The notes beneath the pieces are model-generated. The model ran no database searches and was not told where the DNA came from. It saw nothing but the letters and a program-made list of their open reading frames with translations. The position numbers and the translations under genes were made by a program. A stretch of 64,000 bases of DNA from the NCBI GenBank assembly GCA_018304425.1, contig JAGVWE010000004.1, positions 254,121 to 318,120 of the forward strand, given 5' to 3'. Position 1 is the stretch's first letter, and each line of letters starts with the position of its first letter. Below are positions 1 through 22,600 of this stretch, piece by piece. Origin of the DNA: Candidatus Iainarchaeum sp. (GTDB lineage Archaea; Iainarchaeota; Iainarchaeia; Iainarchaeales; UBA10219).

Positions 1-3000
1 TCCACGCGCACGCGGATGTTTTTCAGCAACTGTTCTTGTTTCTCGTTCTGGGCCTTGGACTTCACGACCACGCCGTACTGGCCGGGAACCTCTTCACCGG
101 CGAAGACCTGCACCTGCTGCGAGCCATCGCCGTCCAACACGAATTCCTTGACGGAGAGTTCGAGGTCGGACTTCAACTCGAAGCCGGTTTTCCCGCCGCA
201 CTTCTTCGTGTTAATCGTGAAGGAGGCGTTGCCTTTCTCGGGCATGGCGATGAGGTGCCGGTCGAAGCTCACGCAGTCCTTGATGTTCACGATGTTGATT
301 TGCGTGCCCAGCTTGGATTCCAGCAACTGGTCCTTGTCTTCCTTGGGGTTGCGCGCCGAAAAGGAGACGTCGGCCTTTGCCTCGCCCATGGTGCCGCCGT
401 AGGGCGTGAAGGTCAAAATCGCGTTCAGCGTTTCCCCGGCCTTCACTTCGCTGACGATGGCCCGGCTGTACGCGGAGCGCAACTCGACTTCGGTCTGGCC
501 AATGGTGACCCGGTACTCGCCCAACTGGTTGCCTTGGAAGGCGAGCTGGGCTTCGAGCCTGCGCAGGGGCACGGGCTGGCCGTTAATCGTGCAATTGTTC
601 TGGATCTGGAACTCGACGTTCACGGGGTTGCCTTCGGTGGTTGTCTCCCACTTGTTGCGGGTCAGGGTCAGGCAACCCGGGCTGTCAACATCGCCGGACA
701 AGCCGATGCCGATTCTGGCCGGTATTTCGAACACCCATTCCTGGCCAAAGTTGGTCACGGTCACCAGGAACTTGCCGTCCAAGTCCACGCGGTCGGTCAA
801 GGCCTTGCCGTCATCGCTTAAGAACACCCGGAGGGTGCCGTCCAGGGTCTGGCCCGGCTGGATGACGTAGTTATTGTAGTTCGAGACCAGCCAGTTCCTC
901 GTCTGCTGCTCGTCCAAGAGGTTCTTGAAGTTGCCCACCAACTCGATGGACAGCACTTTCAAGGGGAAGTTGGCCACGTTCTTGGCGTGGAAGCCGGTCT
1001 CGGCTTCGGGCTTGGACTTCGCGTTCAGGCTCATGCCCAACTGGTTGGGCTGGATTTCCAGGATGTTGGAGGTAACGGTTATCTCGGCTTCCTCTTGGTC
1101 GAACTTTTCCTTCTCGCATTGGAGCACGAGTTGCACGCCCGGCAACTGCGCGGGCACGCGAATCACGGCCCTTCCCTTGGAATCGGTTTTCGCCTTGACG
1201 ATGACGTTGCCCCGCTTGTCTTCCAGGCGGCAGGTGGCGTTGTCCACTTCGAGGTTGGTGCCGGAGTCGACGAGGTTGAAGACCAGGTCGTTTTCGATGC
1301 CGGAGGACAGCGTGCTCCGCTCTAACTGGATGAGCAGCTGCTTGGAGGCCGCCACCGCGACGTTGATGAACCGGTCGAAGGCAATCTGCTGGTCGGACAC
1401 CAGGCGGAAGTTGATGACCCCGTTGATGGCGCGCTGGGTGGCGAACCGGAACCGGCCCGTTATCCGCTTGTTGGGGGCCAGGTTGCCGACGTCCAGCCGG
1501 GGGAACTCGGGGCCGTTGACGTTGCCCACGCGCGGCCTCCCGTCCGCGTCGTTGACCGTGTAGTCCAGGAAGATGAGCGACAGGTCGGGGTTGGTTACGC
1601 GGAGGTTGGCGTTGGTGTGGTACAAGGCCTTCGAGTTGTTGGTGAGCGTGAAAATCATCTCGTATTCCGTGAACACCTGGGCCTGGTAGGTGTCGGTTAC
1701 GTTCTCCAAGAGGTCTTCCTGGAGGTTCCGGATGGACGCGTCAAAGCAGAAGTCCTGGTCGCAGAGGGTGCTGGCCCCGACTTGGTAGGTCTGCTTGTAG
1801 GCGTTGTCATACAATTCCGTGGTCTCGATGAAGTCATCCGCCGGGTCCCTGACCACGACCCCGTCAACGGCCCAGGCCCGGTAATAGACGTTCAATTCGT
1901 CGCCCACGGAAGCCGTTTTCCGCACCTGCACCGTGGCCTCCAACTCGTAGATGCCGGGCTTGGGGTTCCGCCAGTAGGCGTTCAGCCACTTCGCGTCCCC
2001 GTTCGTGTAATCGTAGCCGGACTCGTCGAGGCCGCTGCGCTCGTCGAAGGCCGTTGACTTGATGAGGCTCGCGCCCGGGGCATTGACTCCCTTGAGGTAG
2101 AGGTCATCCTTTTCCATGATGAGGTCGTCGCCGGTGCGGATGTGGAGGCCGGCCTCCTTGTAGGGGAGCGCATCCGGCAGCCTCAACTGCCACCTCCCCG
2201 TGTACTCTTCGCCGGCCGCCAGGTTGGTGGCCAGCCTTTCTCCCTTGAACAAGCCCAGGAACTTGACTTCGGCCGGCCGGTCGATGATGCTGGGTTCGAG
2301 GACCGCGGTGAAACCCGTGTACCCGCTGGCCTGGATTTTCCGGCTCGGCGAAACATACGTTGAATAACCGTCCTTGGCCGCGCTTACATAGACTTCCTTG
2401 TCGGCCTTGGTTTCAATGGAGAACGAGCCGTTCGCGTCCGTGTACGAGGCGCCGATTTTGCCGTTGGTCAGCGTGCTGTACACCGTCACCAGGGCAAAGG
2501 GAATGGCCTTGTTGTCCTTGTTGACCGCGTTCACGTAGAGGGTGCCCTTGCCCACCTGCATGGCCACCGTCACGTCAATGCCTCCACCGCTAGTGGTTCC
2601 GCCCCCGAACCGGAAGTCGTTGCTCCGGCCGGCGCCGAACTCGCGGAAGGCAAACGCGTAGTACAAGCCGGGTTTCACGCCCGCGAACCTTGCCAAACCG
2701 TTGGCGTCCGAGGTCTCGCTTTCATAGCCGGCCACGAAATTGGTTTCCGGCACGTACAAGGCCACGCTGGCATTGTCCACCGGGCTCCCGTCCTCGTCCA
2801 AAACCTGCACGGACAGCAACCCGCACTTCTGGGCCGAGCACTTTTCCAACGCGATTTCGGGGGTGTTCGCGGAAATCCGCGCGCTCGCCACTTTTTCGAG
2901 GACATAGCCTGCGGCTTCCACGGTCACCCGGTAGTCCACGTCGTCCGAGACGTTGAACACCACGACGCCGTCCGCACCCGTTTCAAGGGACTTGAATTCG

Positions 3001-4115
3001 CTGTCATCCGCGGCCAGCCTCAAGGTCACCCGCGCGCCGGCAAGGGCCTGGCGCGTGGCCTTGTCCACGATTTTGAACGCGATTTTTCCCTTCACGTTCG
3101 AGGTCAGCTCGAGGTTGACGGTCGCGCTCTGCCCGGCGTACACCGTTATGCGCTCGGATTGCCGCAAGCCATAGTTGCCGGTGGAGTCATAGGCTTTCAC
3201 GAGGTAACTGCCCTGGGGCTTGTTGAACACGGCCTGGCCGTCATAAGCAACCGTCGAGTCCACGGGCCCGACTTCCGGGTTCGCCAGCAGGTCCTCGTAG
3301 CGGAACAAGTCCACGTCCACGCCGCTCAGGGGCTGGCCCCGCGCGGAAACGTTGACGATGATCCGGCCGGCTTCGGCCACCACGCCTTCGAGGTAAACGG
3401 TTTTCACGTCCGAGTCCACGCTCACCGAGGCCAGGTTGGCCCACCGCTCGGAGTCGGAGATCGTTGCAATCAATTGCCCGCAGCCGGCGGGTTCTTCCAC
3501 GACGGCTTTCCCGTTGGAGACGACCATGGCGTCAGGCGCCTTCACGTAGGGGCTCTTGCACCGGAATTCCACGCGCAGTTCATCCGTAATCGGCTGGCCC
3601 AACTCGTTGAGGAACCGCAGGGTGCGCGTGCTCGCGCTCCCCGCCGCTGCCCCGCTTTTTTCGAGGGCAATGGTCTCGGTTTGCTCGTCCGCCGTGGCCT
3701 CCACGGACTTGGTCTGGCTCTTGTAGCCCTCGCCTCCCACGGTCAGGGTGACCTTGCCGCCCTTCGGCACCCGCAACTGCACCTGGCCAAAGGCGTCCGT
3801 GGTCAGGGCCTCGGTTTTTCCGTCCGAGTAGGAGACGCTGACCAGCATGTTGGGCAAGCCAATGTCCTCCGTGTCCAGCACCCGCACCGTGAGGCTGGTG
3901 TTGAAGCCCTGGAAGGCCATCGTGAAAGCGAAGTTGGCGGCCACGGCCAGCGCCACCAGGAACAGCAGGGCCATGATGGGGAAGCTGGGCAGGATGCGGT
4001 CAATGGGGTCAATGATTTTGTAGACCGGGATGACCTTGTCTATCTTGTCGAGTAATGCGTAGTAGCCGTCCTCGAGCTGGAAATAAAACTCTTTCAATCC
4101 ATCCAGGAAACCCAT
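1..4115 (-). CDS. Giant surface protein A (C-terminal part outside window)
   Basis: The frame is open from the ATG at 4115 to the window start, about 1371 residues, so the carboxyl end is missing. The N-terminus has a short cytoplasmic stretch with IPVYKIIDPID and LPSFPI followed by one hydrophobic anchor (about residues 47-68); the rest should lie outside the cell. It holds successive beta-rich repeats of the carboxypeptidase-regulatory/Ig type, each with an adjacent Gly-Asn or Asp-Gly turn, then a module with STLCDQDFC and later CLTLTR...NNCTINGQ, both matched in giants B and C. It starts 10 bases after the stop of B, so the two are probably one transcript. The family is an anchored surface protein or adhesin by architecture; ligand and function are unknown. 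Paralogy with B and C is seen directly; the surface location is inferred. Confidence 0.85.
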   Translation of the reverse strand, partial: MGFLDGLKEFYFQLEDGYYALLDKIDKVIPVYKIIDPIDRILPSFPIMALLFLVALAVAANFAFTMAFQGFNTSLTVRVLDTEDIGLPNMLVSVSYSDGKTEALTTDAFGQVQLRVPKGGKVTLTVGGEGYKSQTKSVEATADEQTETIALEKSGAAAGSASTRTLRFLNELGQPITDELRVEFRCKSPYVKAPDAMVVSNGKAVVEEPAGCGQLIATISDSERWANLASVSVDSDVKTVYLEGVVAEAGRIIVNVSARGQPLSGVDVDLFRYEDLLANPEVGPVDSTVAYDGQAVFNKPQGSYLVKAYDSTGNYGLRQSERITVYAGQSATVNLELTSNVKGKIAFKIVDKATRQALAGARVTLRLAADDSEFKSLETGADGVVVFNVSDDVDYRVTVEAAGYVLEKVASARISANTPEIALEKCSAQKCGLLSVQVLDEDGSPVDNASVALYVPETNFVAGYESETSDANGLARFAGVKPGLYYAFAFREFGAGRSNDFRFGGGTTSGGGIDVTVAMQVGKGTLYVNAVNKDNKAIPFALVTVYSTLTNGKIGASYTDANGSFSIETKADKEVYVSAAKDGYSTYVSPSRKIQASGYTGFTAVLEPSIIDRPAEVKFLGLFKGERLATNLAAGEEYTGRWQLRLPDALPYKEAGLHIRTGDDLIMEKDDLYLKGVNAPGASLIKSTAFDERSGLDESGYDYTNGDAKWLNAYWRNPKPGIYELEATVQVRKTASVGDELNVYYRAWAVDGVVVRDPADDFIETTELYDNAYKQTYQVGASTLCDQDFCFDASIRNLQEDLLENVTDTYQAQVFTEYEMIFTLTNNSKALYHTNANLRVTNPDLSLIFLDYTVNDADGRPRVGNVNGPEFPRLDVGNLAPNKRITGRFRFATQRAINGVINFRLVSDQQIAFDRFINVAVAASKQLLIQLERSTLSSGIENDLVFNLVDSGTNLEVDNATCRLEDKRGNVIVKAKTDSKGRAVIRVPAQLPGVQLVLQCEKEKFDQEEAEITVTSNILEIQPNQLGMSLNAKSKPEAETGFHAKNVANFPLKVLSIELVGNFKNLLDEQQTRNWLVSNYNNYVIQPGQTLDGTLRVFLSDDGKALTDRVDLDGKFLVTVTNFGQEWVFEIPARIGIGLSGDVDSPGCLTLTRNKWETTTEGNPVNVEFQIQNNCTINGQPVPLRRLEAQLAFQGNQLGEYRVTIGQTEVELRSAYSRAIVSEVKAGETLNAILTFTPYGGTMGEAKADVSFSARNPKEDKDQLLESKLGTQINIVNIKDCVSFDRHLIAMPEKGNASFTINTKKCGGKTGFELKSDLELSVKEFVLDGDGSQQVQVFAGEEVPGQYGVVVKSKAQNEKQEQLLKNIRVRV

Positions 4116-4125
4116 GTTCTCGACC

Positions 4126-4380
4126 CTAGTTTGCGGTAAGCGTTGCCTTCATTCCCCCGTGGATGCTGCAGCTGGCCTCGTGTTGGCCGGCGGGCAGCGT
4201 CACGCTCATGGACTGTGAAGCGCCCTTTTCGAGGATGACTTCACTGCCCCCTATGGCGAACGTATGCTTATTATTCCCGTTATTGGTGATATTAAACCTA
4301 ACCGTTCCCGCGTTCACCGTGGACGGGCTCAAGGCAATGGCGTTGTCGGTCAAAGTGGCGGTTACTTCCTGGACCTGCGC
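4126..4380 (-). other. Cupredoxin domain (type 1 copper site) of giant B
   Basis: The last ~80 residues of giant B form a plastocyanin/amicyanin-like fold by pattern: NAGTVRFNITNNGN, then KHTFAI with the first His ligand, then a Gly/Ser linker, VTLPAGQHEASC and CSIHGGM. The spacing C-x2-H-x2-M equals that of amicyanin. All four ligands are present, so the site should be functional. Such domains usually carry electrons between periplasmic or extracellular partners; no obvious partner oxidase is in this window. Confidence 0.8.
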
Positions 4381-7300
4381 GGGCTGCGGGGGCTTTGGCT
4401 GCGCCGCCGTCCCCTGCTCGGTTTGCTTCAGCAGTTCCGCCTGGTTCCAGTAGAGGTTCATGCCGGGCCCCTTGACTTCCGAGCCCACTTTCACGGTCTG
4501 GTCTTCCTTCATTTCCACGCAGACCCTGCCCTGGCCCAGGAGCTTCACGAGGTTCTCGAACGTGTAATCCGAGTTCAGCCGCTCGCCGCGCTGGTTGAGG
4601 GTAATCGCTTGCTCGCCTTCAATGGACTTGGCCTGGCCCTCGTCCCAGGCCGTGAGCTTGAACTTGTCCTTGCCGCAGTACACCTGGAGTTCGCTGGCCG
4701 TTACCTCTCCCGAGCGCGTGGGCACGAAGGTTACCGCCTTCAACACGGCCCGTCCATTCTTTGGCTGGTCGTCGAACATGACGGCATGGTACTTGTCGCT
4801 GCCCTTGCCCTTGCACAGCCGGCCCACGGCTTCCACGGTTTCCAGGAACTTGCCGGTCTTCCCGGTGATGGTGTTTGCACTGGCTTCCCACTTGATGAAC
4901 TCGTTGCCGGGCGTGGCTCCCTTGACGTTGAACTGGTAGATGAGGCCGGCCGGGGTGAACAAGTCCTTGCTGGTTTTCTCGACTTCCAACTGCAGGGGCA
5001 CGGGATCCGAGGGCTGGTAGATTAGCGCGCCGGGCACGTACTGGTCGTTGACTTTGCCGGTCGGCAGCACCAGGCTCAAGATTTTTCCAGTCTTGGTGTC
5101 GTCATAGCGGTTCACGTAATCGAACAACACGTGCCGGTAACCAGGTTTGTCGCCGCCAATGGCTTTCGCGACCCTGGCGCTCTCGCTGTCGGCGTAGGAG
5201 AAGAACATCTTGTCCTGCTCACCCGAATCCACCTTGTACGTGGTGCCATAGCCTTCCCGCAGCAACTCCGCACCCTTCAACCCGACCAGGTTGTCCAAGG
5301 GCAAGCCGAACAAGGGGTTCGAGGCAAACCGTTCGCGGATGGCCTTGAGGGGCTTCTCGAATTTCATGCGCACGATAACCATCCCGTCCCGGTACACCTG
5401 GAGCCTGACCCGGTACAAGCCACTATCGAACTTCGTGATTTGCTTGGGGTTCTTCTCGCATTCCTCGGAGTCGTCGCAGAACAGCCATTCCTTGAAGGGC
5501 TTCAACTCGCCCTTGGTGCCGCCGGCCGTCTTGCCCAGCTTGTCCTTGAAGGCTTCCTGGAAGTCGTCCTTGAAGTCGCTGCTCAACCCGTCCTCTTTCA
5601 GGTACGCGTTGAACTCGATGTTGTCCTTGTACAGCTTGTAAATGCCTTCCGAAGCGAACTTGTACCGGTCCTTGTAAGCGCTGACTTCCGCGACCCGGTC
5701 CAGGGAACCATCCCGCATGAGCTTCAGCTTTTCTTCTTCGGTCAAGCCCAGCTTGTCGCGGATGCCCACCCGGAACTCCATGGAGTCCTTCAAGAGGTTC
5801 AAGGCCTTCAAGGTGAGGGCCTTCTGTTCCGCGGCCGGCCTGGACTTGAAGGTGTCGAACACGAAGGACTCCGGGTTCGGCAGGCTGGCAACCGTTTGCT
5901 GGAACCGCTGGTATTCTTCGAGCGTCAACAAGTAGAAGCCGCCCTCGACGTCCACTCCATTGTAGGAGCCGGTGAACGAGTAACCCGTTTCCTCGAACGA
6001 GTGCGCGCCCAACTGCTTGAGCACGGCCTGGTACTCGGCGGGCGTGATTTTCAAGCCAATGGCTTTCGTGGGCGCGAACGGAATCTGGATGACCATGTCC
6101 CGCTGGATGTTCTGGAACTCGTCCAGCAGCAACCGGTTCGCCATGATTTCCCTCGTGCGGTCGACCAGGTTCTTGGCCTTGGCCGGGTCCCTCAGGCTTT
6201 CAATGGGGGCCTTTGCGGCCTGCAAGAACTGCAAGGCCAGCTGCTCCATGCGCGTGGTCAGCACGCCCAGGCTCTCGCCCCGCAGCAGGACGTTGTCCTG
6301 GGTGCCATCCCTTCCCACGAAGTAGAGCCTGTTCTGCATCGGGCTCTTGGAATCCTTGTCCACGCCCTTGAGGGTAACCGCCTTGATGAGGTGCTTGTAC
6401 AAGTACAGGGAACTAATCCGTTCGCCCAACGCGTTCTCTTTGGGCAGGTTCTTCATGGCCTCGCTGACCAGGGAAGCCTTTTGCGCCACGGACTCGCCGA
6501 ACTGCACGGCGTCGCAGAACTTATAATTGGTTTCATCCGGCTTGGCCTTGCCCAGCTTTCCATCGGCTCCCGCCTCGTACTCGTACTGGCCGCACGTGAA
6601 GGGGTTCACGCCCTCCTTTTTCTCGCCGCCCCACCGCCAGTCGAACAACAGCTTGTCAAACCCGTAATCGGTTACCACGCCCTGGCCTGACTTGCCGTTC
6701 TCGCACGCGAACTGGTCGGTTGCCTTGACCTGCACCTTCCTCGGCTCGCCTTGGTTGATGCAGAAGTTCAGGGGCAGGATGACATTGCCCCGCTTGCCGT
6801 TGATGGCCCTTTCCACGGTTACCGTCACGGTCTCCGAGAACTTCGTGGCCCGGCCGTTCCAGCCCCCGGCCTCGTTGTCCTCGCTCGCGTCCACCCGCAT
6901 GATAATGTCGTGGCCGCCCTTCGGCATTTCGCCGCCCAACAGGCCGCCCAACGTGAAGATGGTCTGGCCCAGCGAGCGCAGGTTCTCTTCCAAGGAATAG
7001 CGGTTGATTTCAAAGCTCACCACGACGCCGTTCTTCTCGATGCGGTTGTCCTTGACCTGGATGCCGGTGATGCGGTCCATTCTCCCGCAGCCGCCGACTT
7101 CGCCTCCCGGGGTCTGCTTTGCGAACCGGAAGAAGGGCATCGGCATGTCCTTGGCCGTGTCGTACACGTACACCCCGCCGTTCTTTTCCAGGAGGTCAGC
7201 GGGAATGCAGTCGTTTTCGGTGCCCTTAAAGGTGTGGTTGCTCAGCTTGAAGGCGTCCGGGTTCAGGCAGGACTGGGGCGTCGCGTTGGGGTCTCCATAA

Positions 7301-10300: not shown

Positions 10301-12309
10301 ATCTGGGAGGTCGCGGCCCGGACATTCGACAGGTACAGGCCATCGCTTTCAAACAAGTCGTTTTCCCCGGTCCGCAAGTGGATGCCGGCCTCTTCGAAGC
10401 TGCTGCCCGGCGGGAGCTTCAACCGCAGCCGCGCCGTGTACTTCTGCCCGGGGTTCAAGGCGTTCTTCACCGCGTCCGCCCCGGAGTAGAGGCCCATCAA
10501 CTCGATTTCGGTCTTTGAAACGGTTTTTCCCAGCATCACGGCAATCGTTTGCGTCACGTCCTTGACCGGCTGCACGGGAATCGTGGTGTACGGCAGATAG
10601 TCCTGCGCATTCACCACAAAGTAAACGGTCTTGTCGGCCCGCACTTCCACCCTGGCCACGCCGTCCGAGTCCGCCATCTGCTCGGCCAGGGACTCGTTCT
10701 TGGAAACCGACAGCGCGCGCACGGAGGCACCGGCCACGATTGCGCCCTCCTCGTTGGTCACCCTCACTTCGACGGCGCCCATGCCGATGGGCAAAACAAT
10801 GGAGGCGCGGTTGACCTGCCTCCGGCTCATCTGCACGGGCAGCGAGGTGGCCTCGCCAAAGCCCGGCTTGTAAGCGTAAACGTAGTAGGTGCCGTCCTCG
10901 ACCCGTGAAAACACGGCTTCGCCGTTCGCACCTGTTACTATCTCGCTGCCGATGGCCGTGCCATCCGCTTTCTTGAGCCGCAGCCTCGCGTCCTCGACCG
11001 GGTTGTTGCTTTCGTCCGCGACTGTTACCGTCAAGGAGCCCGCGTTCTGCGCCGTGGCCTTTTCCAGGCGCAGGTCCACGGCTTGTTCGCCGGGCATGAT
11101 TCCCGATTTCTTGAACAACAAGTACTCCGCGTGGTCCACCAAAATCTCGTAGGCCACGTTCTCCCCCACCGAGAACTCCGCGGAACCGTTGGCCGCGGTC
11201 AACTGGGAGGCAATGCTCTTGTCCCCCTTGGAAAGCGTGACCAGGGCGTTGGCGACGGGTTCCTGGCTCTGCGAGTCGCGGAGCACCAGCCGGATTTTCC
11301 CGACCGCTTTCTTCGCCAGCCGCACCGACAGGCCCGCGCTCTGCTTGGGCAGCACTTCCTTGACGTCTCCCGCGACCGAGGAATCGAATTCGGCGAAGGC
11401 CCCCGTGGGGTCATAAGTGGTAACGTAGTATTTGCCTGGGACGACGTCGTTGAAGACCACCGTTCCCGCCGACGTGGTCGTGGCCTCCGCGATTTGGCTG
11501 GTGGAACCGAAGGCCTTGAGGTAGACCGTGATGCCTGCCAGGGCCTGGCCGTCCGAGCTCAGCACGGAAACGGTTAACGCCCCGGCGTCCTGGGTTGGGG
11601 CGTCCAGGAAGACTTCCGCGGTCTCCGCCGTGCTCAAGTCAATGGAGTCGTTTTCCGTCTTGAAGCCGTTCAAGGGGCTCGCGTAGAGGATGCCGCAGTC
11701 CTTTGGAACCGACAGGTCCAGCCTTCCATTGGAAGTGGTCTTGGTCTGGTTGAAAGAGCTGTTGCCACCGCAGGAAAACCGGACCGTGATTTCCCCTGTC
11801 ACCAGCTCATTGGTCCCGGCCTTCAAGAACTTGACGGTTTTGAGGATTTCCTTGGCAGCGGACTTCAGGGTAATCGCATGGCTTGCCCGCGGCTCTTTCG
11901 CGGTGAACAATTCCTGCACGGTTTCGAACTCGTCTTTTTTCGCCGTCAACTCGACTGCCTGGTTGACCGGCACCCGCACTTCCACCAACCCCGTTTCACT
12001 GGTGTTGACCACAAAAGAATCCTTGCCCGCCACCTTCACGGTTACAATCGCGTTCCCCAACGGGTTGCCTTCCTCGTCCACCACGGAAAGCGAGAGCGTG
12101 GACTCGCCGGGAGCCACCGCGCCCAGCAAAAACCAGCCGGCCACGCCCAAGACGACGAGCAGCAAGCCGAGGACAATCGGGAAGGAAGGGATGTTCTGGG
12201 CTTCAATGGGGTCAATCAGCGAGTAAACCGGGATGCCGGCCTTGTCCAGCTTGTCCAGGAAACCATAGTAAGCGTCCTCCAGCTTATAGTAAAGGTCTTT
12301 CAGCCCCAT
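4126..12309 (-). CDS. Giant surface protein B with C-terminal cupredoxin domain
   Basis: 2727 aa from the ATG at 12309 (a TTG four codons upstream is less likely; GAGGT lies 5-6 bases before the ATG). Order: cytoplasmic tag with IPVYSLIDPIE and IPSFPI, anchor at about residues 48-68, a string of carboxypeptidase-regulatory/Ig-like repeats to about 600, the shared STLCDDAFC module, more beta domains with paired Cys (NNCAVNGQ, NKC), a Tyr/Asn/Gln/Pro-rich tract at about 1285-1425, a long mixed region, and a final domain of about 80 residues. That last domain has His2682, Cys2714, His2717 and Met2720 in a C-x2-H-x2-M arrangement, the amicyanin-type set of type 1 copper ligands. Upstream of giant A in the same direction, 10 bases apart. 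Surface anchoring and copper binding are inferred from sequence; electron transfer or copper storage are both possible. Confidence 0.88.
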   Translation of the reverse strand: MGLKDLYYKLEDAYYGFLDKLDKAGIPVYSLIDPIEAQNIPSFPIVLGLLLVVLGVAGWFLLGAVAPGESTLSLSVVDEEGNPLGNAIVTVKVAGKDSFVVNTSETGLVEVRVPVNQAVELTAKKDEFETVQELFTAKEPRASHAITLKSAAKEILKTVKFLKAGTNELVTGEITVRFSCGGNSSFNQTKTTSNGRLDLSVPKDCGILYASPLNGFKTENDSIDLSTAETAEVFLDAPTQDAGALTVSVLSSDGQALAGITVYLKAFGSTSQIAEATTTSAGTVVFNDVVPGKYYVTTYDPTGAFAEFDSSVAGDVKEVLPKQSAGLSVRLAKKAVGKIRLVLRDSQSQEPVANALVTLSKGDKSIASQLTAANGSAEFSVGENVAYEILVDHAEYLLFKKSGIMPGEQAVDLRLEKATAQNAGSLTVTVADESNNPVEDARLRLKKADGTAIGSEIVTGANGEAVFSRVEDGTYYVYAYKPGFGEATSLPVQMSRRQVNRASIVLPIGMGAVEVRVTNEEGAIVAGASVRALSVSKNESLAEQMADSDGVARVEVRADKTVYFVVNAQDYLPYTTIPVQPVKDVTQTIAVMLGKTVSKTEIELMGLYSGADAVKNALNPGQKYTARLRLKLPPGSSFEEAGIHLRTGENDLFESDGLYLSNVRAATSQITRGQSFTPYDGYSIDSTRLTTGNGKWANIVFPNAMGGIYEAEADVMVRDTVPLGTVLPLHYRGWAKTGGGFIRFPADNILGSKVSVAGRYDLYANTKTRSFSAGPSTLCDDAFCYTFGLEDLGTGIQTAVLEDYPARIQSSYKLSFTVTSISDRQFNSTELHVENAASAVSFSEYSVTDVSGMEKKGTLDGSQLVVPVGNMGRDDDVFGSVKLRTKREGVTDVVVSLVSQGQRVFERRIRLNVLAAAEMELEVLPKIIVPFINNNLLIKVTEKGTDNTISDATVTIRRNDVTLVSGKTNSEGIFVYQLTPTGAGSKITVLVEKPGYRSTERVITVSENILTVRPGQIKDLLVIGSNPEKEHSLFLGNQTEIPLVVEEVRESTAFKEFFKFTFADSYAGTELPTNSDQNLQFVIGLTPAAARILEPKKVSGSLDVVVSNREFNRQWTASIPVELRIGFGDEVDEAGCFSVFPQDLEISTNAGVKTYELTLKNNCAVNGQAIPLTNVEVKVVEANKNPLGEFFLSVDASEGGANRVRLTNQPAKALNVLAENAEVPLTLEFKPAEVSSGESKPTLVFTAAHNTASGQERLTQNVRALVRINDLVQCVEFIGADKLVVSSNPFNLGYGQYNANTTYDPFNYAIPDAYRNSYGYSTGVTQPFSGYQNPQSNVPVSSSQYVVNEQGVPIDPGTRQPYPQNYPDQVNNPNYGYYNQPYNQATYNSQYSSYPANLRAYPYSDYRAPNYNYDVYGGQATGQTKGNSSNFGVKNNCASAVVIDFNPEAGLLVSPQRSVVLEPNSEQTVSVQSSYVLGNYSVEARGKLKNSKEPSVPLRTITVTVDNEFSRSYSDCIDIDPAGTISLQNFVGKPKKLEVINKCYAEGIRVEPVPSSISFSNRDMILSWSVKGERLETKSTGKVTQIVSFDLIPNTQQYQNNAPPFPFEGSPMAKLGNLSYFATAGYYRVNAPTDLVVFFSNRLGSRSSRVFHVTIQDLLALGEFAERWMSYGDPNATPQSCLNPDAFKLSNHTFKGTENDCIPADLLEKNGGVYVYDTAKDMPMPFFRFAKQTPGGEVGGCGRMDRITGIQVKDNRIEKNGVVVSFEINRYSLEENLRSLGQTIFTLGGLLGGEMPKGGHDIIMRVDASEDNEAGGWNGRATKFSETVTVTVERAINGKRGNVILPLNFCINQGEPRKVQVKATDQFACENGKSGQGVVTDYGFDKLLFDWRWGGEKKEGVNPFTCGQYEYEAGADGKLGKAKPDETNYKFCDAVQFGESVAQKASLVSEAMKNLPKENALGERISSLYLYKHLIKAVTLKGVDKDSKSPMQNRLYFVGRDGTQDNVLLRGESLGVLTTRMEQLALQFLQAAKAPIESLRDPAKAKNLVDRTREIMANRLLLDEFQNIQRDMVIQIPFAPTKAIGLKITPAEYQAVLKQLGAHSFEETGYSFTGSYNGVDVEGGFYLLTLEEYQRFQQTVASLPNPESFVFDTFKSRPAAEQKALTLKALNLLKDSMEFRVGIRDKLGLTEEEKLKLMRDGSLDRVAEVSAYKDRYKFASEGIYKLYKDNIEFNAYLKEDGLSSDFKDDFQEAFKDKLGKTAGGTKGELKPFKEWLFCDDSEECEKNPKQITKFDSGLYRVRLQVYRDGMVIVRMKFEKPLKAIRERFASNPLFGLPLDNLVGLKGAELLREGYGTTYKVDSGEQDKMFFSYADSESARVAKAIGGDKPGYRHVLFDYVNRYDDTKTGKILSLVLPTGKVNDQYVPGALIYQPSDPVPLQLEVEKTSKDLFTPAGLIYQFNVKGATPGNEFIKWEASANTITGKTGKFLETVEAVGRLCKGKGSDKYHAVMFDDQPKNGRAVLKAVTFVPTRSGEVTASELQVYCGKDKFKLTAWDEGQAKSIEGEQAITLNQRGERLNSDYTFENLVKLLGQGRVCVEMKEDQTVKVGSEVKGPGMNLYWNQAELLKQTEQGTAAQPKPPQPAQVQEVTATLTDNAIALSPSTVNAGTVRFNITNNGNNKHTFAIGGSEVILEKGASQSMSVTLPAGQHEASCSIHGGMKATLTAN
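8030..8450 (-). repeat. Tyr/Asn/Gln/Pro-rich low-complexity tract in giant B
   Basis: About 140 residues composed mainly of Tyr, Asn, Gln, Pro, Ser and Gly, with short recurring pieces such as NPNYGYYNQPYNQ. The tract interrupts a Cys-paired beta domain and resembles prion-like or elastic linker sequence. Giants A (visible part) and C lack it at the matching place. Confidence 0.8.
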
Positions 12310-12485: not shown

Positions 12486-14213
12486 CTAGGGCTGCGTGAA
12501 ACAACCGCTTTGCGCGCTCCCCCCGGTTGGCAGGGCCGGCATCCCCCCGGTTGGCGAGGGAGGCACGTTCACCGAGTAGCACGTCCAATCCGTGGCCACC
12601 ACGGCCTGGCAATCGGCTTGCTCTTGGGGCGGGGCATCCAGGGCACAGGCATTGTCCTGGCCCATGAACCGGTGCGTGAACCCGCTCAAGCCCCCATCAT
12701 GTAACCGGATTACATACGTGTTTTCATTGTCCTTGTTGACCTTGTACTGGTCATCGTTTTCCACGAACGAAAGGAAAGCGTCAAACTCCTTGGCCTCCGT
12801 GCACTCCACGTGCTCGGCCGCGCCCCCCTCGATGCAGGAACCAATCGGGACATACTGGGTCTTGGGCTCCCAGTTTTCCTCCGCGTCCCGCTCAAAGTAG
12901 GCCCCCACCCCCTCGACCAGGTTCGGGCACATGCCTCCCGACAGCAGAGGCGAATTAGGATAACCCGAGCTGCCCGTGAACGTGCCCGTAGAAGCGGTGC
13001 CGCTTTGGGCGTACTCGATTTTCTTGGAAATCTCGGACGCGGTTCCCACGTCCACCTGCGACAACACGCCTGGACCAATCCGCTTCACGTCAAAGCCCTC
13101 GTCCTCCCCCACCCCGTACTCCGCGGCCAACGCGTTCGCGACAAAGTTCAGGCGCTGCTTGATGATTTCCCGCAACATATCCCCCATGCTCTGCCGGTCC
13201 TTCACCCCATAGTTTCCCGCGAAATCGATTCCCATGCTCGCCAACCCGCTCAAGTCCACGTGCACGGGCGGTATGCCCGGAGGCCGGCTATCCCCGGGAC
13301 AGGGGTCTCCCTGGCTGTGCCCCGCCGGCAGGTAGGGGTTGTTCCTTGCCCCGCAACTGCCGGGGTCGCACACGCCGAGCTTCAACTCCTCCAACTCATT
13401 GTGGATTCTGGCACTCAACAAGCCATAATCCGCCTCATTGCGGATGAAGTCGCTGTCCGTGGGCGCGGCGTCATTGGGCGTGTGCGCCAATGCCTTCGCC
13501 CCGGCCAGGGCCTTGAATATGCGGAGGGGCACGTAAATCCGGAAATTGCTGCGCGGCAGGATGGGCTCCTTGATTACGCGGCCCGTGTCCCGGTTGGTCA
13601 CCCGGATTTGGGGCAGCATCTCATAGTCTTCGTCGCTTATCCGGGACATGTTGAGGTTCACGTAAAACGTGCCCACGCACTCCTTGTACACGCCGTTCGG
13701 GCAGTCGATGACTTCGAAGAAGTCGTCCTGCTTCACGCTCTCCTGGAACAGTTTCTGCAGCACCACCCGCATCTGTTCGACGTTGCTCTCCAGGTCCAGG
13801 CGGAAGCTCTTGAAGTCCTGGCCCTTCCCCGAGCCCAGGATGTTCGTCAAGTGGTTCGCGGTGCGGTTCGCGAACTGTACCCCCGAGTCCGTTCCCCCAA
13901 AGTTAGCGATTGCGAAGTCCCTGACCAGCTCGTTCCAGGTCACGGTGTCCGGCGTAATCAAAATCGAGTTCTGGGGGTTCGTCAGGTACTGCTCGATCTG
14001 GTAGCGGATGCCGAAGTTGAACACCTGCATGGCGTCCGCCCGGGCCAAATCCGCCATGGCCTGCATTTCCTGCTGTTCCTGGATGTCCGAAATCGTGTCC
14101 GTGACGTTCCGCTCCGTCCGGATCATGGACTGCGCCAGCAGCACGGCCAACACGATGAGGATGATGGAGACCAGTGCCGTGAAAAGCGTGAAACCCTTTG
14201 CCGTGCCGCGCAT
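12486..14213 (-). CDS. Large pseudopilin-like protein with prepilin-type N-terminus
   Basis: 575 aa. The N-terminus MRGTAKGFTLFTALVSIILI is a class III signal: a short basic leader, Gly, then Phe-Thr-Leu and a ~20-residue hydrophobic helix, so cleavage after Gly7 by a prepilin peptidase is expected. It differs from the KGQ pilins further right and is closer to the G|FTL type of bacterial pseudopilins and of the 213-aa protein at 46397. The body contains several Cys near residues 290-310 (CDPGSCG) and near the end. No function is recognised beyond a likely place in a pilus-like fibre or as a minor tip subunit. It lies between giant B and a secreted protein; its promoter box overlaps an inverted repeat, so it may be controlled separately. 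A prepilin peptidase gene is not in the window. Confidence 0.8.
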   Translation of the reverse strand: MRGTAKGFTLFTALVSIILIVLAVLLAQSMIRTERNVTDTISDIQEQQEMQAMADLARADAMQVFNFGIRYQIEQYLTNPQNSILITPDTVTWNELVRDFAIANFGGTDSGVQFANRTANHLTNILGSGKGQDFKSFRLDLESNVEQMRVVLQKLFQESVKQDDFFEVIDCPNGVYKECVGTFYVNLNMSRISDEDYEMLPQIRVTNRDTGRVIKEPILPRSNFRIYVPLRIFKALAGAKALAHTPNDAAPTDSDFIRNEADYGLLSARIHNELEELKLGVCDPGSCGARNNPYLPAGHSQGDPCPGDSRPPGIPPVHVDLSGLASMGIDFAGNYGVKDRQSMGDMLREIIKQRLNFVANALAAEYGVGEDEGFDVKRIGPGVLSQVDVGTASEISKKIEYAQSGTASTGTFTGSSGYPNSPLLSGGMCPNLVEGVGAYFERDAEENWEPKTQYVPIGSCIEGGAAEHVECTEAKEFDAFLSFVENDDQYKVNKDNENTYVIRLHDGGLSGFTHRFMGQDNACALDAPPQEQADCQAVVATDWTCYSVNVPPSPTGGMPALPTGGSAQSGCFTQP

Positions 14214-16666: not shown

Positions 16667-19600
16667 TCACGTGGCCCGCGTGGCGTTCCACCGGGTATAC
16701 GTGTCATATAACTCGTCCAGGTCCGGCTCGGCAGGCGCGCGGTACTTCTTGCCATAGGCTTGCAGGACGCACGCAAACTGCTGGGCTTCTTCTCCGGGGC
16801 AAGCAGCCAGCAGGGACTTGACTTCCCCGGCCGCGCAGTCAAAGCTCTCGGCAAGGCCCTTGAACTTGGGGTCGGGCTTGCCGCACCCCGTGATGTACTC
16901 GTAATTGGTTTTCGCGCCCAGGTCCGTTTGCCAGATGCCGAGGACGATCAGCAGGGCCTCTGGCACCCCGGCTTTTGCCGCTATCTCCGTCGAGTGATGC
17001 CCAATGGCTTCGTAATAGGTTTTCACGTACCTTGCTTCCGTTTTTCCTTTTTCGCCCCACAACCCGGCGTTGGGCCGCAAATTGTGCAGGGCCTTGGAAA
17101 CGTCCTTGTCAAACGCCTTGCCCGTGCAGTCCTCGAGCTTCTTGCTCTGGTCCACCGCTGCTAGGTCCGTTACGAGTGAAATCTTTTTCTCGACGAAGTC
17201 GCCCACGCGCTTCATGGTCACCTTGTAGGTCTCGCCCCGCTTGAACTTCTCGTCCGGCATCTCCGCCGTCACAACCTTTCCGTCCGGCGTCTTCACGGTC
17301 GCGGACGCGACAATGCTTTCCGTGGGAGTAATGGGTTCGGCGGCGAACTGCCAGTACGCTTCCCAAGCCAGCAACCCCATGAACTGCGCGAACAACCCGG
17401 AAACCACGCCGCCCAACAACTTCAAGGCGCCCTTGCCGCTCGCCTTCAAGATAGTGTCAGTAAAGAATTTCTTGATGGCCCCCGAGCCCTTGCCCTTGAC
17501 TCCGGTCTTCCGCATTTCCTCGAGGATGTCTTTCATGATTTTTTCCTCTTTTTCGCCGAGGGCAACGGATTCCTTGGCTGAAAGGGTTTGAACACCGGCC
17601 AGCGCACTCCACACGGTTTTCTCGGCTTTCACCACATCAGCCACCCTTGCATTGACGGCGGCGGTGAGCTGGTTTTTGGCAATGCTGCCATTGCTGGTCC
17701 ACACCGCGTCGCGCAAGGCATGCTCTACTTCCTGCCTCACCGCTGCCCTAAAGGGCGTTGCGCCAGGCGTTGGAATAAGGCCCCCACCTGCCTTGGTTTC
17801 AATGGCATCCACAATCTTGGGCGCAAGTTCATCCGACCACTGCATAATCTGGGCATTGCCGCCTGGACTGAAATCGGTTACGTTCCAGCCACCCACGTTC
17901 CTTCCCGGCGTAAAAGTTCGCAGCATGTTCTTGGTGTTGATGTTGTCAGGAAGGATTGCACTCTTGAACGCCGCTTCCACGTTCTCGCTCGTCAGCTTTT
18001 TCAACGCGGCTTCGTCGGCTTCCGTGATGAGTTTCCTCGCCTCTGCCCTGAGCGCCGTGTCGAAGTGACCCGCCCTGAATGCGGGCCGGTTGAGAACCAC
18101 GGGGGCCACTTCCTGCCGCGCCTTCAACAAGGCTTCCTGCAACTCCGTTTCAGTCAACTGCTTGCCTTTCGTGTAATAGTTGTCGAACAAGTATTTCTCG
18201 AGTTCTTCCGCGTACTCCCTGTTGAAAGTTTTCCTGGCGGTTTTGTCCAATGAATCCAGTTGCGCGGTCCACCGGGCGTTGCTTTCAGCGGTGGCAAGCT
18301 CTTCCGATACCTGGCCAAAGATTTTTTTGGCGCTTTTTTCGGTCAACGGCTTCTTCAGCTCCGGGATGACCAATTCCTTGGCCGCGCCCTCGGCGCCAGC
18401 CAGTTTGGCCCCCTCTTCCACGGCTTCCTTGACCGCGGCCTCTCCGCCGCCGGCCGCAGCCGCCTTCTCCAATGCCGTGCCAGTAACCCTCCGGATGGTG
18501 GCCGGGATGGCCGGAATCACTACCTTGCCGGCCGAACTGCCAATGCCCACCGTCACCAGCATGTCCTCGGTCTTGCTCTTGAAGTCCTCCAAGTCCTTTC
18601 CGCTCGCCTTTCCGCTGGCAATCTGTTCGGCCTGCGCCTGGAAGTCCGCCACCTGTTTTTCGGTCACGGTTTCCGGCGAACCCAAACCAACGGTGCGCTT
18701 GGCAGTCGAGTAAACCCCGGAACCCGCCTTGGAAATCGTGGTTCCCACCTTGCCCAAGACGCCGGCGTAATCCAAGCCAGCGACGCCAACGGGAACTATG
18801 CAGTCCCAGAAGAAGCTAAAGGCCCCCACCGGGAAGCCGGCCGCAGCCGCAATGAACTTGGCGCTCCCGCACCCGACCAGGAAGACGCCCAGGCCGCCGA
18901 ACTTCTGCAACGTGAACTTCTTGTCATACGCAGTCTGCCCCTCGGCCGGCGCGTCCGCCAAAATCTTGGTGGCGTCGTCCATCCGCGCCTTGGCGTCCTC
19001 GAGGTTCTTCAAGTTGCTCAACGTGATTTCGTCGGGGCCGCCCTTCCAGCCCAGGGTGGCATACAATTCCTTGGTCTCGCCATCCGCTAGCGGTTCCTTG
19101 GCGATGCGGTCCATGAAGTCATAGGGGTGCAGGGCGCACACCTGCAGGGAAACGGTTCCGTCCTTCGCGGCCTTCTTGGCGTGCACCGCGGACTGCGCGC
19201 CCAACACGAGCTTCTTGCCCTGCACCATCTGCGCGTGCGCGTCGCCCAACGCGCACACCTGGAAGTTCTTGTAATAGCGGCCCTTCAAGTCCTTTTCCTT
19301 CAAGTCCATGGCGGAAAACGCCTGCGCGCCCACTTCTTCCTTCCGGGTTTCCTCAAAGGGCTTGCCGCGGTACACCCGTTGCTCGCGGTTCTCCACCTGG
19401 GCCTGCACGTAGAATTCCTTCAAGCCGTTGAACGCCGTTTCCTGCTTCACCGACACCTTGACCGGCTCGGAGACGTCGCTGAACACGTTGAAGTCACAGC
19501 ACGCGGTGTTCTGGCTGACCGTCAACGGGTTCGGGCAGGCGTTGAGCTCCAGTTGCCCGATTTTCTCGGTGGACTTCAACCAGAACGCGTTCTCGTTGTC

Positions 19601-22600
19601 CGTGATGCAGCCATCGATTTTGCGCTCGCTGAGCTCCCGCATGGCCAGCGCCGCGCTCTGCACGATTTGCTTTTCGACCTTGGCCTTCGCGGCCTCCTCG
19701 CCGCCCTCGAAGTCCTTCACCAACGCGTTAATCGTCATCTTCTGGCCGGCCTCCGTGGAGCGAATCAGGTCGAGTTTGACGAGGTAGCCCTGCGTGTCCC
19801 CGGTGGCCAAGCGCACCCGGTTGAATTCCGGCTCGCCTTTCCGGACCCGCTTGTCCGAGTTGAACAGGGAGGACGCGAACTCCTTGGCCAGGCCCTCCAT
19901 TTTGTCGTCCGCATAAGTCACCAGGCCGGGCCAGGCGTTCCGCGTGTTGTCCGCCGAGTAGCCCGCGTCCAGGGGCAGGAACGCCATCGCGTTCTGGATT
20001 TTGTTCTCGCATTGCTGGGTCAACTGCCGCACGTTTTCGCCTTCCTCCAATTCAGAGCGCAAATCCAGGTAAACATCCATGGCATCTGTAATCATTCTCC
20101 CGCCCTGCACCTTGACCGCGCCCGACAGCCGGGCCTTGTAGAGGCCGCAGCCCTCGAAGGCGTCGGAGAAGAAGAGCTGCTTGCCGTAGCCCGTGGCCAG
20201 GCTCTGCCGGTACTCGTCTTCCGTGGCCGGGAACTTGACGTTGTAGGCGTTCAACTCCGGGGCCTTCTTCGCGAAGCCGTCCTTCAACGCTTCCACGCTG
20301 AGCACGTCGTTCGCGAAATAGACTTCGAACTTGTCGGGCCGCAAGCCCAGGTTCTCGAACAGGCAATAGCCTTCGTTGAGGGCCGCGTTGTCCGCATAGC
20401 AACCCGTGTTCGCGACCTCGTTCTTGTAGTGCGCGGTAATCTGCTTCTGCGCGTCCCGCAGCTTTTCCTGGATGCGCTTGGCCAGGAACTGGCCCAACTG
20501 CTCGGCATCGCAGTAAGCCTTGTCGCAGTCCGCCTGCTTCGCGATTTTGGGGAAGGAAACCTTTTTCCGCTCGTTTTTGTCGCACACCGGGATTTCCTCG
20601 GGCTCGGTGGCGGCCTCGCCTTTGAGCGTGGCCGACTTGCCCAACTCCAGCTGCACGCTGATTGGCTGCGAGGAAACGAATTTGTTGCTGCGCACCAGCA
20701 ACGCGCGCAAGTACACCGGCACCGGGCTCGACGTGAAGTAGGCCTCGTTCTTCTTGAGCGTCAAATTGACCGTGGTCGAGGCCCCGGGGAAGAGCACCGT
20801 GTCCTTGACCGCCAAATCCAGTTCGTTGGCGCCAATCCGCTTGGGTTCCGCGCCCAAAACCCGGACCTCTTCCGCGCAACTGTTCTTGACGGTCAGGGCT
20901 TCCTGCAAGGCCCCTTCCGTGGCCCGCTTGGACTTGAACTCAATAAACGCGGGACTGACCACCAGGCATTGCTTGGGCGAGATGTGCACCGTGACAATTA
21001 TGGGGCCGAAGTCATGGGTTTTCCCGTTGATGATGCCCCGCATCCCGATCTCCTGGACGTCCAGGGGAGTGGTCTTCTCGGTCCGCTGCGCCCTCGCCAC
21101 CACGTAATAGGGGGGCATGAGGCTCTGGCCCCGCCGCAGCACCTGCACCGGGAACTTGGGCTCAATCTCGATCTTGGCGTTCCCGGACTGGAACCTTCCC
21201 CCCACCGAGAAGCTGAGGTTCTGGATGTCCGCGTACCCCACGTTGGTCGCATAAATGGGCACCGTGACCTTGGCCTCTCCCACGCCAGTATCCGACAGGT
21301 AAACGTCGATGTTCCTGGACACCTGCAAGGCAGAGTCCTTGTTCCACAACACGACTTCCAAGGGCAGGGACTTCGACAACAAGTCGCTCCTGAACCACAC
21401 GTCGTAGAGGAACCGCTGCTTTTCCGCGTAATTCCGTTCCAGTTCGTTGACCACGCTGACGTTGATGGTCCGGGTGTCGGTCTGGCTTCCCGCCGGCCCC
21501 AGCAAGAGGTTTTCAACGGCCACGCGGATGCTCTGGTCAGGCACCCCCACCGGCACCACGGCTGACTGCAACTCGACTTCCGTGGCGCACTTGTTTTTCG
21601 CCGTAATCTGCACGGCCTGCGTGCTCGCCGGCTCGGTCAACAGGTAGGTCACGAGCCGCGCCGAACTGAATTCCACGCAGTTGGGGTCCAGCGGCCGGTT
21701 GTAGTCCAGCACCACCCGCGTCTGCGCTTCGACGCGGAACTTGCCAAAAATCCGTCCCCTGAAAATCACGTCGGCTTCGCCGTGCGCGCGCTCGGCCTTG
21801 CCGCTGTACTCGCCTGCCACCGTCACCTTGCCACTGGCATTGGGTTCAATCGCGTTCGGCGGCGTAACCCGCAGGTCCAGGTCCTCCGGGAAGTCCCCTA
21901 TCTTCACGACTTCAACGGTGAGGTCCTGCACGCGGTCCGAAGAGGTATTCCGCAAGTCGAACCGCTCGTCCGCGTTCTTCTGCCCCTTGGGGATGTTGAC
22001 TTCCACGGCTTGCGGCGCCGTTAACACCCCGTCCCGGCCTATTTCGACCACGCCTTCCAGGGGCTTATAGTCGGCCGCGTTGGCCGTGAACCGCAGGGTT
22101 CCCGCGGGAAAAGCGTTCTTGACTAGGTACAAGCCGTTCAAGCCCTTGTTCACGGTGCCCGTGCCCTGGATGACCCGCAGGGGCGCGTTGCCTTCGCCGT
22201 AGAACGTCAGGACCGCCCGCTCAACAAAGGAACCGTCCCCGGCCTTCAACAAGACCGTGAAGTCCTGTCCGACCAGGACGCGGTCGGGCGAGACCGTGGC
22301 CGTCATGCCCTGGTCCTGGCTGACCTCGAAGTTGAAGTTCTGCGTCACCGCGCTCACGGCCGAAATCAATTGCACGGTCAAGGCCGCCGAACCCTTTTCC
22401 ACGGCCTTGAAGTAGAGCCGCACCTGGACCGGGCCGCCCGGCAAGACCTTCAAGTCCTTGGCCGTGAGGTCCGTGTCCGTCGAATCCTTATCCGGGAAGT
22501 CCGCGAACTGTTCCACGCCGTAACCCGTGAAGAAAATCTTGGGCGCGTTCCTCGAAGTCGCGCCCTTGACCGTGACGCTGACTTCCCGTGCGGGCGCGAC

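Follow-up and report, generated by a model that had tools for sequence, protein, structure and literature searches.

What is a small copper-binding type of domain doing at the very end of a giant archaeal surface protein? The question is raised by a gene near the start of the window, the whole 64,000-nucleotide stretch of Candidatus Iainarchaeum DNA that we analyzed. Counted from the ATG at position 12309 on the minus strand, the gene encodes exactly the 2727 residues that a previous, sequence-only reading of this DNA had assigned to it; the listed open reading frame adds four residues by starting from an upstream TTG. Beyond an N-terminal hydrophobic segment, Pfam searches of the giant match six CarboxypepD_reg domains as well as other Ig-like domains, and many β-sandwich domains are found in the protein outside its C-terminal end. 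This combination of a hydrophobic segment and extracellular-type domains supports the proposal that the protein is an anchored giant of the cell surface. Because there is a single anchor (residues ≈38–63) followed by Ig-like and CarboxypepD_reg domains, the C terminus likely lies outside the cell; the overall shape of the protein, with this end as its tip, is inferred. With its N-terminal anchor, its CarboxypepD_reg domains, and a conserved C-terminal region ending in WN, the protein belongs to the Ig-like giant family of the Diapherotrites. The coordinates of its features are collected in Table 1.

Table 1. Features of the giant surface protein gene and its terminal cupredoxin domain, in window coordinates.
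Feature	Position	Strand	Basis
Giant surface protein gene, 2727 residues	4126..12309	minus	ATG start; stop codon 4126-4128; AR10 ortholog
Hydrophobic membrane segment, residues ~38-63	12121..12198	minus	Hydropathy scan: sole segment >1.6 in the protein
Best of six CarboxypepD_reg (Ig-like stalk) domains, residues ~425-506	10792..11037	minus	Pfam match
Conserved C-terminal region, common to homologs across the order, ending in a '..WN..' motif	4423..5700	minus	Homolog comparison
Pro/Gln/Ala-rich linker, residues ~2630-2643	4381..4422	minus	pLDDT <50; AR10 alignment already over at 2629
C-terminal cupredoxin domain, residues 2644-2727 plus stop	4126..4380	minus	Pfam Cupredoxin_1; AlphaFold2; fold matches
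His2682 codon, first predicted copper ligand	4264..4266	minus	Aligns with the invariant His of related cupredoxins
Cys2714 codon, predicted copper ligand, only Cys of the domain	4168..4170	minus	Residue count and alignment
His2717 codon, predicted copper ligand	4159..4161	minus	Residue count and alignment
Met2720 codon, predicted axial ligand	4150..4152	minus	Residue count and alignment
Next giant paralog, same N-terminal anchor, runs past the window	3..4115	minus	Starts 10 bases after the stop of the 2727-residue giant

The end of the protein matches the Pfam family Cupredoxin_1 (PF13473) with 31.4 bits when the last 82 residues are searched alone and 28.3 bits in the context of the whole protein, the curated gathering cut-off being 27 bits. 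The family Copper-bind (PF00127; plastocyanin/azurin) has no match anywhere in the organism's own genome in a Pfam profile search. An AlphaFold2 model of 85 residues, calculated from the single sequence with no alignment, comprises eight strands with a mean pLDDT of 89.1 and a pTM of 0.77, and the top Foldseek matches to this model are cupredoxins. In VIA-align comparisons, the closest structures are the cupredoxin domain of EfeO (Z 12.6; rmsd 1.9, 82 aligned), FtrB (Z 11.6; rmsd 2.4, 84 aligned), a copper-bound Cupredoxin_1 protein from Bacillus anthracis (Z 11.6; rmsd 2.1, 82 aligned), and nitrosocyanin (Z 10.8; rmsd 2.1, 82 aligned). The predicted structure thus has the Greek key cupredoxin fold that the sequence-only reading had led us to expect, and we consider it very likely that the last ≈82 residues constitute a genuine cupredoxin domain fused to the giant.

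We then considered whether this fold is likely to hold a metal. The residues previously proposed as an amicyanin-type ligand set, His2682, Cys2714, His2717, and Met2720, are all present at exactly these positions in the translation and form a complete type 1 set, H-x31-C-x2-H-x2-M, with the spacing of amicyanin. The more permissive pattern H-x(25,50)-C-x2-H-x2-M occurs once among the 81,867 residues encoded by the six-frame open frames of at least 60 amino acids in the window, and shuffled copies of the 87-residue tail contain the ligand pattern in 55 of 200,000 cases. Alignment with seven other cupredoxins of related genomes reveals that the first histidine, the cysteine, and the methionine are invariant, and the second histidine, His2717, also occurs in those aligned proteins that are of type 1. 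A profile built from this alignment, our domain included, retrieves plastocyanins (E values down to 2e-19) and amicyanins (down to 9e-17) from the PDB, in both cases with the ligands in register. Two other kinds of site were considered. A CuA site, with its two cysteines in a CxxxCxxxH motif, is ruled out by the single cysteine, and the domain does not resemble the Cup-II class of FtrB, which has an Asp/His site lacking the His-His-Cys set, since His-Cys-His is present here. Type 1 copper loops usually feature an aromatic residue before the cysteine and a glycine after Met-Lys; the loop of this domain is atypical, with a serine and an alanine in these respective positions. From the ligand residues and their register, we consider a type 1 copper site a probable, if still predicted, feature of the domain.

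The atypical residues flanking the loop, the restriction of the domain to a single lineage, and the many β-sandwich domains elsewhere in the giant would all fit a different explanation, in which the domain is a structural β-sandwich cap or adhesion module whose ligands were kept by descent and which carries no metal in the cell. However, some of the ligands should have been lost if the domain were drifting in an apo state, and here all four are intact with exact spacing despite the divergence of the rest of the domain, which is 28–32% identical to a pair of type 1 domains from the order. We therefore regard a purely structural role as improbable.

To place the fusion in context, we compared the giant with an ortholog. 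The ortholog from archaeon GW2011_AR10 (CP010424.1) contains 2683 residues, and the alignment between the two proteins covers residues 2–2629 of ours, with 39.7% identity over residues 2–1300 and 27.0% over residues 1374–2629, after which the AR10 protein ends. The AR10 giant has an orthologous body, the same N-terminal anchor, and the same cluster order, but it stops at the conserved WN motif and has no cupredoxin. In our protein, this point is followed by the linker, which is predicted to be disordered, with pLDDT values below 50 for construct residues 430–440 (≈2633–2643 of the protein) in a model of the last 524 residues built from 12 sequences; the mean pLDDT of that model is 63.5, and it was used for the disordered linker alone.

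The same pattern holds across other relatives. Of 143 genomes searched, 54 contain a match to the C-terminal region of the giant; the matches listed all fall within the same order, and the relatives compared come from families of that order other than the window's own. From 30 homologous loci, we set aside our own and four lacking a stop codon in the fetched stretch; none of the 25 remaining homologs, all with a readable stop, has a CxxHxxM motif in its last 150 residues. In homologs with a detectable shared W motif, 8–42 residues separate the motif from the end of the protein, versus 107 in the 2727-residue giant. A Cupredoxin_1 search of all 75 genomes of the order identified one other giant with such a domain, and among the relatives checked, the terminal cupredoxin fusion is carried by one genome only. 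Because the AR10 ortholog stops at residue 2629 and all 25 readable relatives lack the domain, the cupredoxin is best read as a lineage-specific gain, added at the C terminus of the giant via a flexible, proline-rich linker. With a GC3 of 0.736, the added segment falls below all the other 87-codon stretches that we sampled along the gene (mean 0.861, SD 0.040), which is in keeping with a recent gain.

That low GC3, along with the apparent draft status of the source genome (7 contigs; completeness estimate 92.55%), could instead suggest that metagenome assembly or a frameshift joined a separate cupredoxin gene to the end of the giant. We give this possibility very little credence. The open frame continues without interruption into the domain, which is led into by the proline-rich linker and lacks the separate start codon, signal peptide, and lipobox that set off the free cupredoxins of the genome; a frameshift or missed gene boundary is ruled out as the main reading on these grounds. 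Furthermore, the next giant begins 10 bases on, and the gene order is the same as in AR10.

We also searched for sequence relatives of the domain. A search of the organism's own phylum returned no other match to the cupredoxin domain. One weak match (40% identity over residues 12–74) was found among 398 genomes of the phylum to which genome G089 belongs, and a plasmid search yielded two Deinococcus cupredoxins at 30–33%, which places the next nearest sequence relatives found at 30–40% identity. A narrow cupredoxin alignment found no relatives in public viral and genome contigs. Separately, the C-terminal region of the giant weakly matches Methylobacterium proteins (L063–L066) with E values of about 1e-4, calculated relative to the candidates only.

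Comparison with better known systems clarifies what is familiar about this protein and what is not. Amicyanin and plastocyanin are small, free carriers belonging to the type 1 blue copper proteins. Our domain shares their cupredoxin fold and has the His...Cys-x2-His-x2-Met spacing of amicyanin, but it forms the end of an anchored protein 2727 residues long, its His–Cys interval is short at 32 residues, and it lacks the aromatic residue before the cysteine. The B. anthracis Cupredoxin_1 protein (4hcf) likewise scores above the PF13473 cut-off, and its copper-bound His/Cys/His residues align with His2682, Cys2714, and His2717, although 4hcf is a single small domain of 88–100 residues. This alignment lends indirect support to a predicted convergence of the ligands in space. 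The related profile finds its best PDB match in a multicopper oxidase from Nitrosopumilus maritimus (9cck), which also is an archaeal protein with a type 1 domain at its C terminus; there the cupredoxin is fused to an enzyme, whereas here it is fused to a surface stalk. Within the order, the other cupredoxin-bearing giant (G012; 3447 residues, L044:1304-11644, minus strand) is anchored and carries a type 1 cupredoxin as ours does, but that domain is internal (residues 1926–2006), and the C terminus is instead occupied by a strongly matching Amidase_2 domain (E 1.7e-28); a weak Glucosaminidase match is present as well. The G012 cupredoxin looks like an independent gain. Its C terminus also illustrates an archaeal giant bearing a domain that resembles cell-wall amidases. 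The domain family itself is thus well known, and the architecture is unusual; we found no description of a cupredoxin fused to a giant stalk in the open-access literature searched, in which it is apparently undescribed.

The two closest folds, EfeO and FtrB, serve FTR1-type iron uptake, and the genome encodes both an FTR1 iron permease (L069:6239-7054, minus strand; E 4e-31) and a multicopper oxidase that is a possible ferroxidase. The FTR1 gene and these fold matches make a role in metal acquisition the main rival to the electron-carrier reading: at the cell surface, the domain would oxidize Fe(II) or capture copper, and an importer, for instance the FTR1 permease, would then receive the metal. 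FtrB has been found to oxidize Fe(II) in vitro (PMC11966278), which counts in favor of this alternative. The same protein lacks the His-His-Cys set and instead uses Asp/His plus Glu residues (PMC11966278), and the alternative is weakened by this difference from our domain, in which the type 1 set is complete. The loop of EfeO that aligns with the CxxH of our domain also has no CxxH. In addition, about 70 kb separate the FTR1 gene from the giant, no cupredoxin gene was seen next to the permease, and likeness of fold among cupredoxins says little about function. We consider an iron- or copper-acquisition module unlikely on balance.

The remainder of the genome, an apparent draft with an estimated completeness of 92.55% in which families were searched individually, offers a setting for copper redox chemistry. 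Three other Cupredoxin_1 proteins (L047, L048, and L049) have lipobox-like N termini and a CuA-type CxxxC...H...M motif. Comparable short, CuA-bearing "nosZ-like" proteins are reported for DPANN archaea, and their heterologous expression gave no significant N2O reduction (PMC10936187). The three-domain multicopper oxidase has a lipoprotein-like start and is located on small contig C2 (L068:3626-5161, minus strand). Also on this contig are DsbA-like, CcdA-like, rhodanese, and M56-peptidase/BlaI-like genes; apart from the multicopper oxidase and the rhodanese, these names were assigned by eye. Given the multicopper oxidase and the three CuA-motif lipoproteins, copper redox chemistry outside the membrane appears plausible. 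COX1, cytochrome bd subunit I (CydA), and Cytochrome_CBB3 have no match in the genome at its estimated 92.55% completeness, and there is therefore no obvious respiratory chain for the domain to feed. In a survey of DPANN genomes, electron-transfer-chain components were undetected in about 60.6% (PMC8407392).

We propose that the domain would bind one copper ion and cycle between Cu(I) and Cu(II), acting at the outer surface as a one-electron carrier (or a copper relay) on a tether. Its partners would most likely be the cell's own extracytoplasmic copper proteins, namely the multicopper oxidase lipoprotein, the most plausible if putative partner in the genome, and the CuA-motif lipoproteins, or otherwise carriers of a neighboring cell. 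That the fold, the fusion, the copper site, and some form of redox or copper use all hold jointly has, in our estimate, a probability of roughly 0.65. The specific role of a tethered extracellular electron carrier is more tentative, at somewhat less than even odds. The sequence-only reading is borne out as an observation and partly supported as an interpretation, with host contact and extracellular electron transfer as candidate functions. Electron exchange with a neighboring or host cell through a type 1 center on a giant stalk, which would amount to extracellular electron transfer by way of copper-based cell contact, is highly improbable.

DPANN archaea are often thought to rely on fermentation. 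If the domain does bind copper outside the cell, this locus would offer a specific case in which extracellular redox activity of such archaea could be tested, and it would suggest that small-genome DPANN archaea fit a conserved giant scaffold with new functional ends, of which the copper domain here and the Amidase_2 domain and internal cupredoxin of the G012 giant are examples in the order. The domain is of a well-known type; it is the terminal placement that could position a redox site outside the cell.

The 2727-residue giant is one member of a tandem family present across the order. A further giant follows the adjacent paralog, and one more lies upstream within the window. This upstream gene (16667-25078, minus strand) encodes a 2803-residue anchored giant whose last residues appear lysozyme-type by eye, with no supporting Pfam match for that end. 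Between the two giants, the minus strand at 12486-14213 encodes a 575-residue protein with an N terminus, MRGTAKGFTLFTALVSIILIVL, that resembles a type IV pilin signal.
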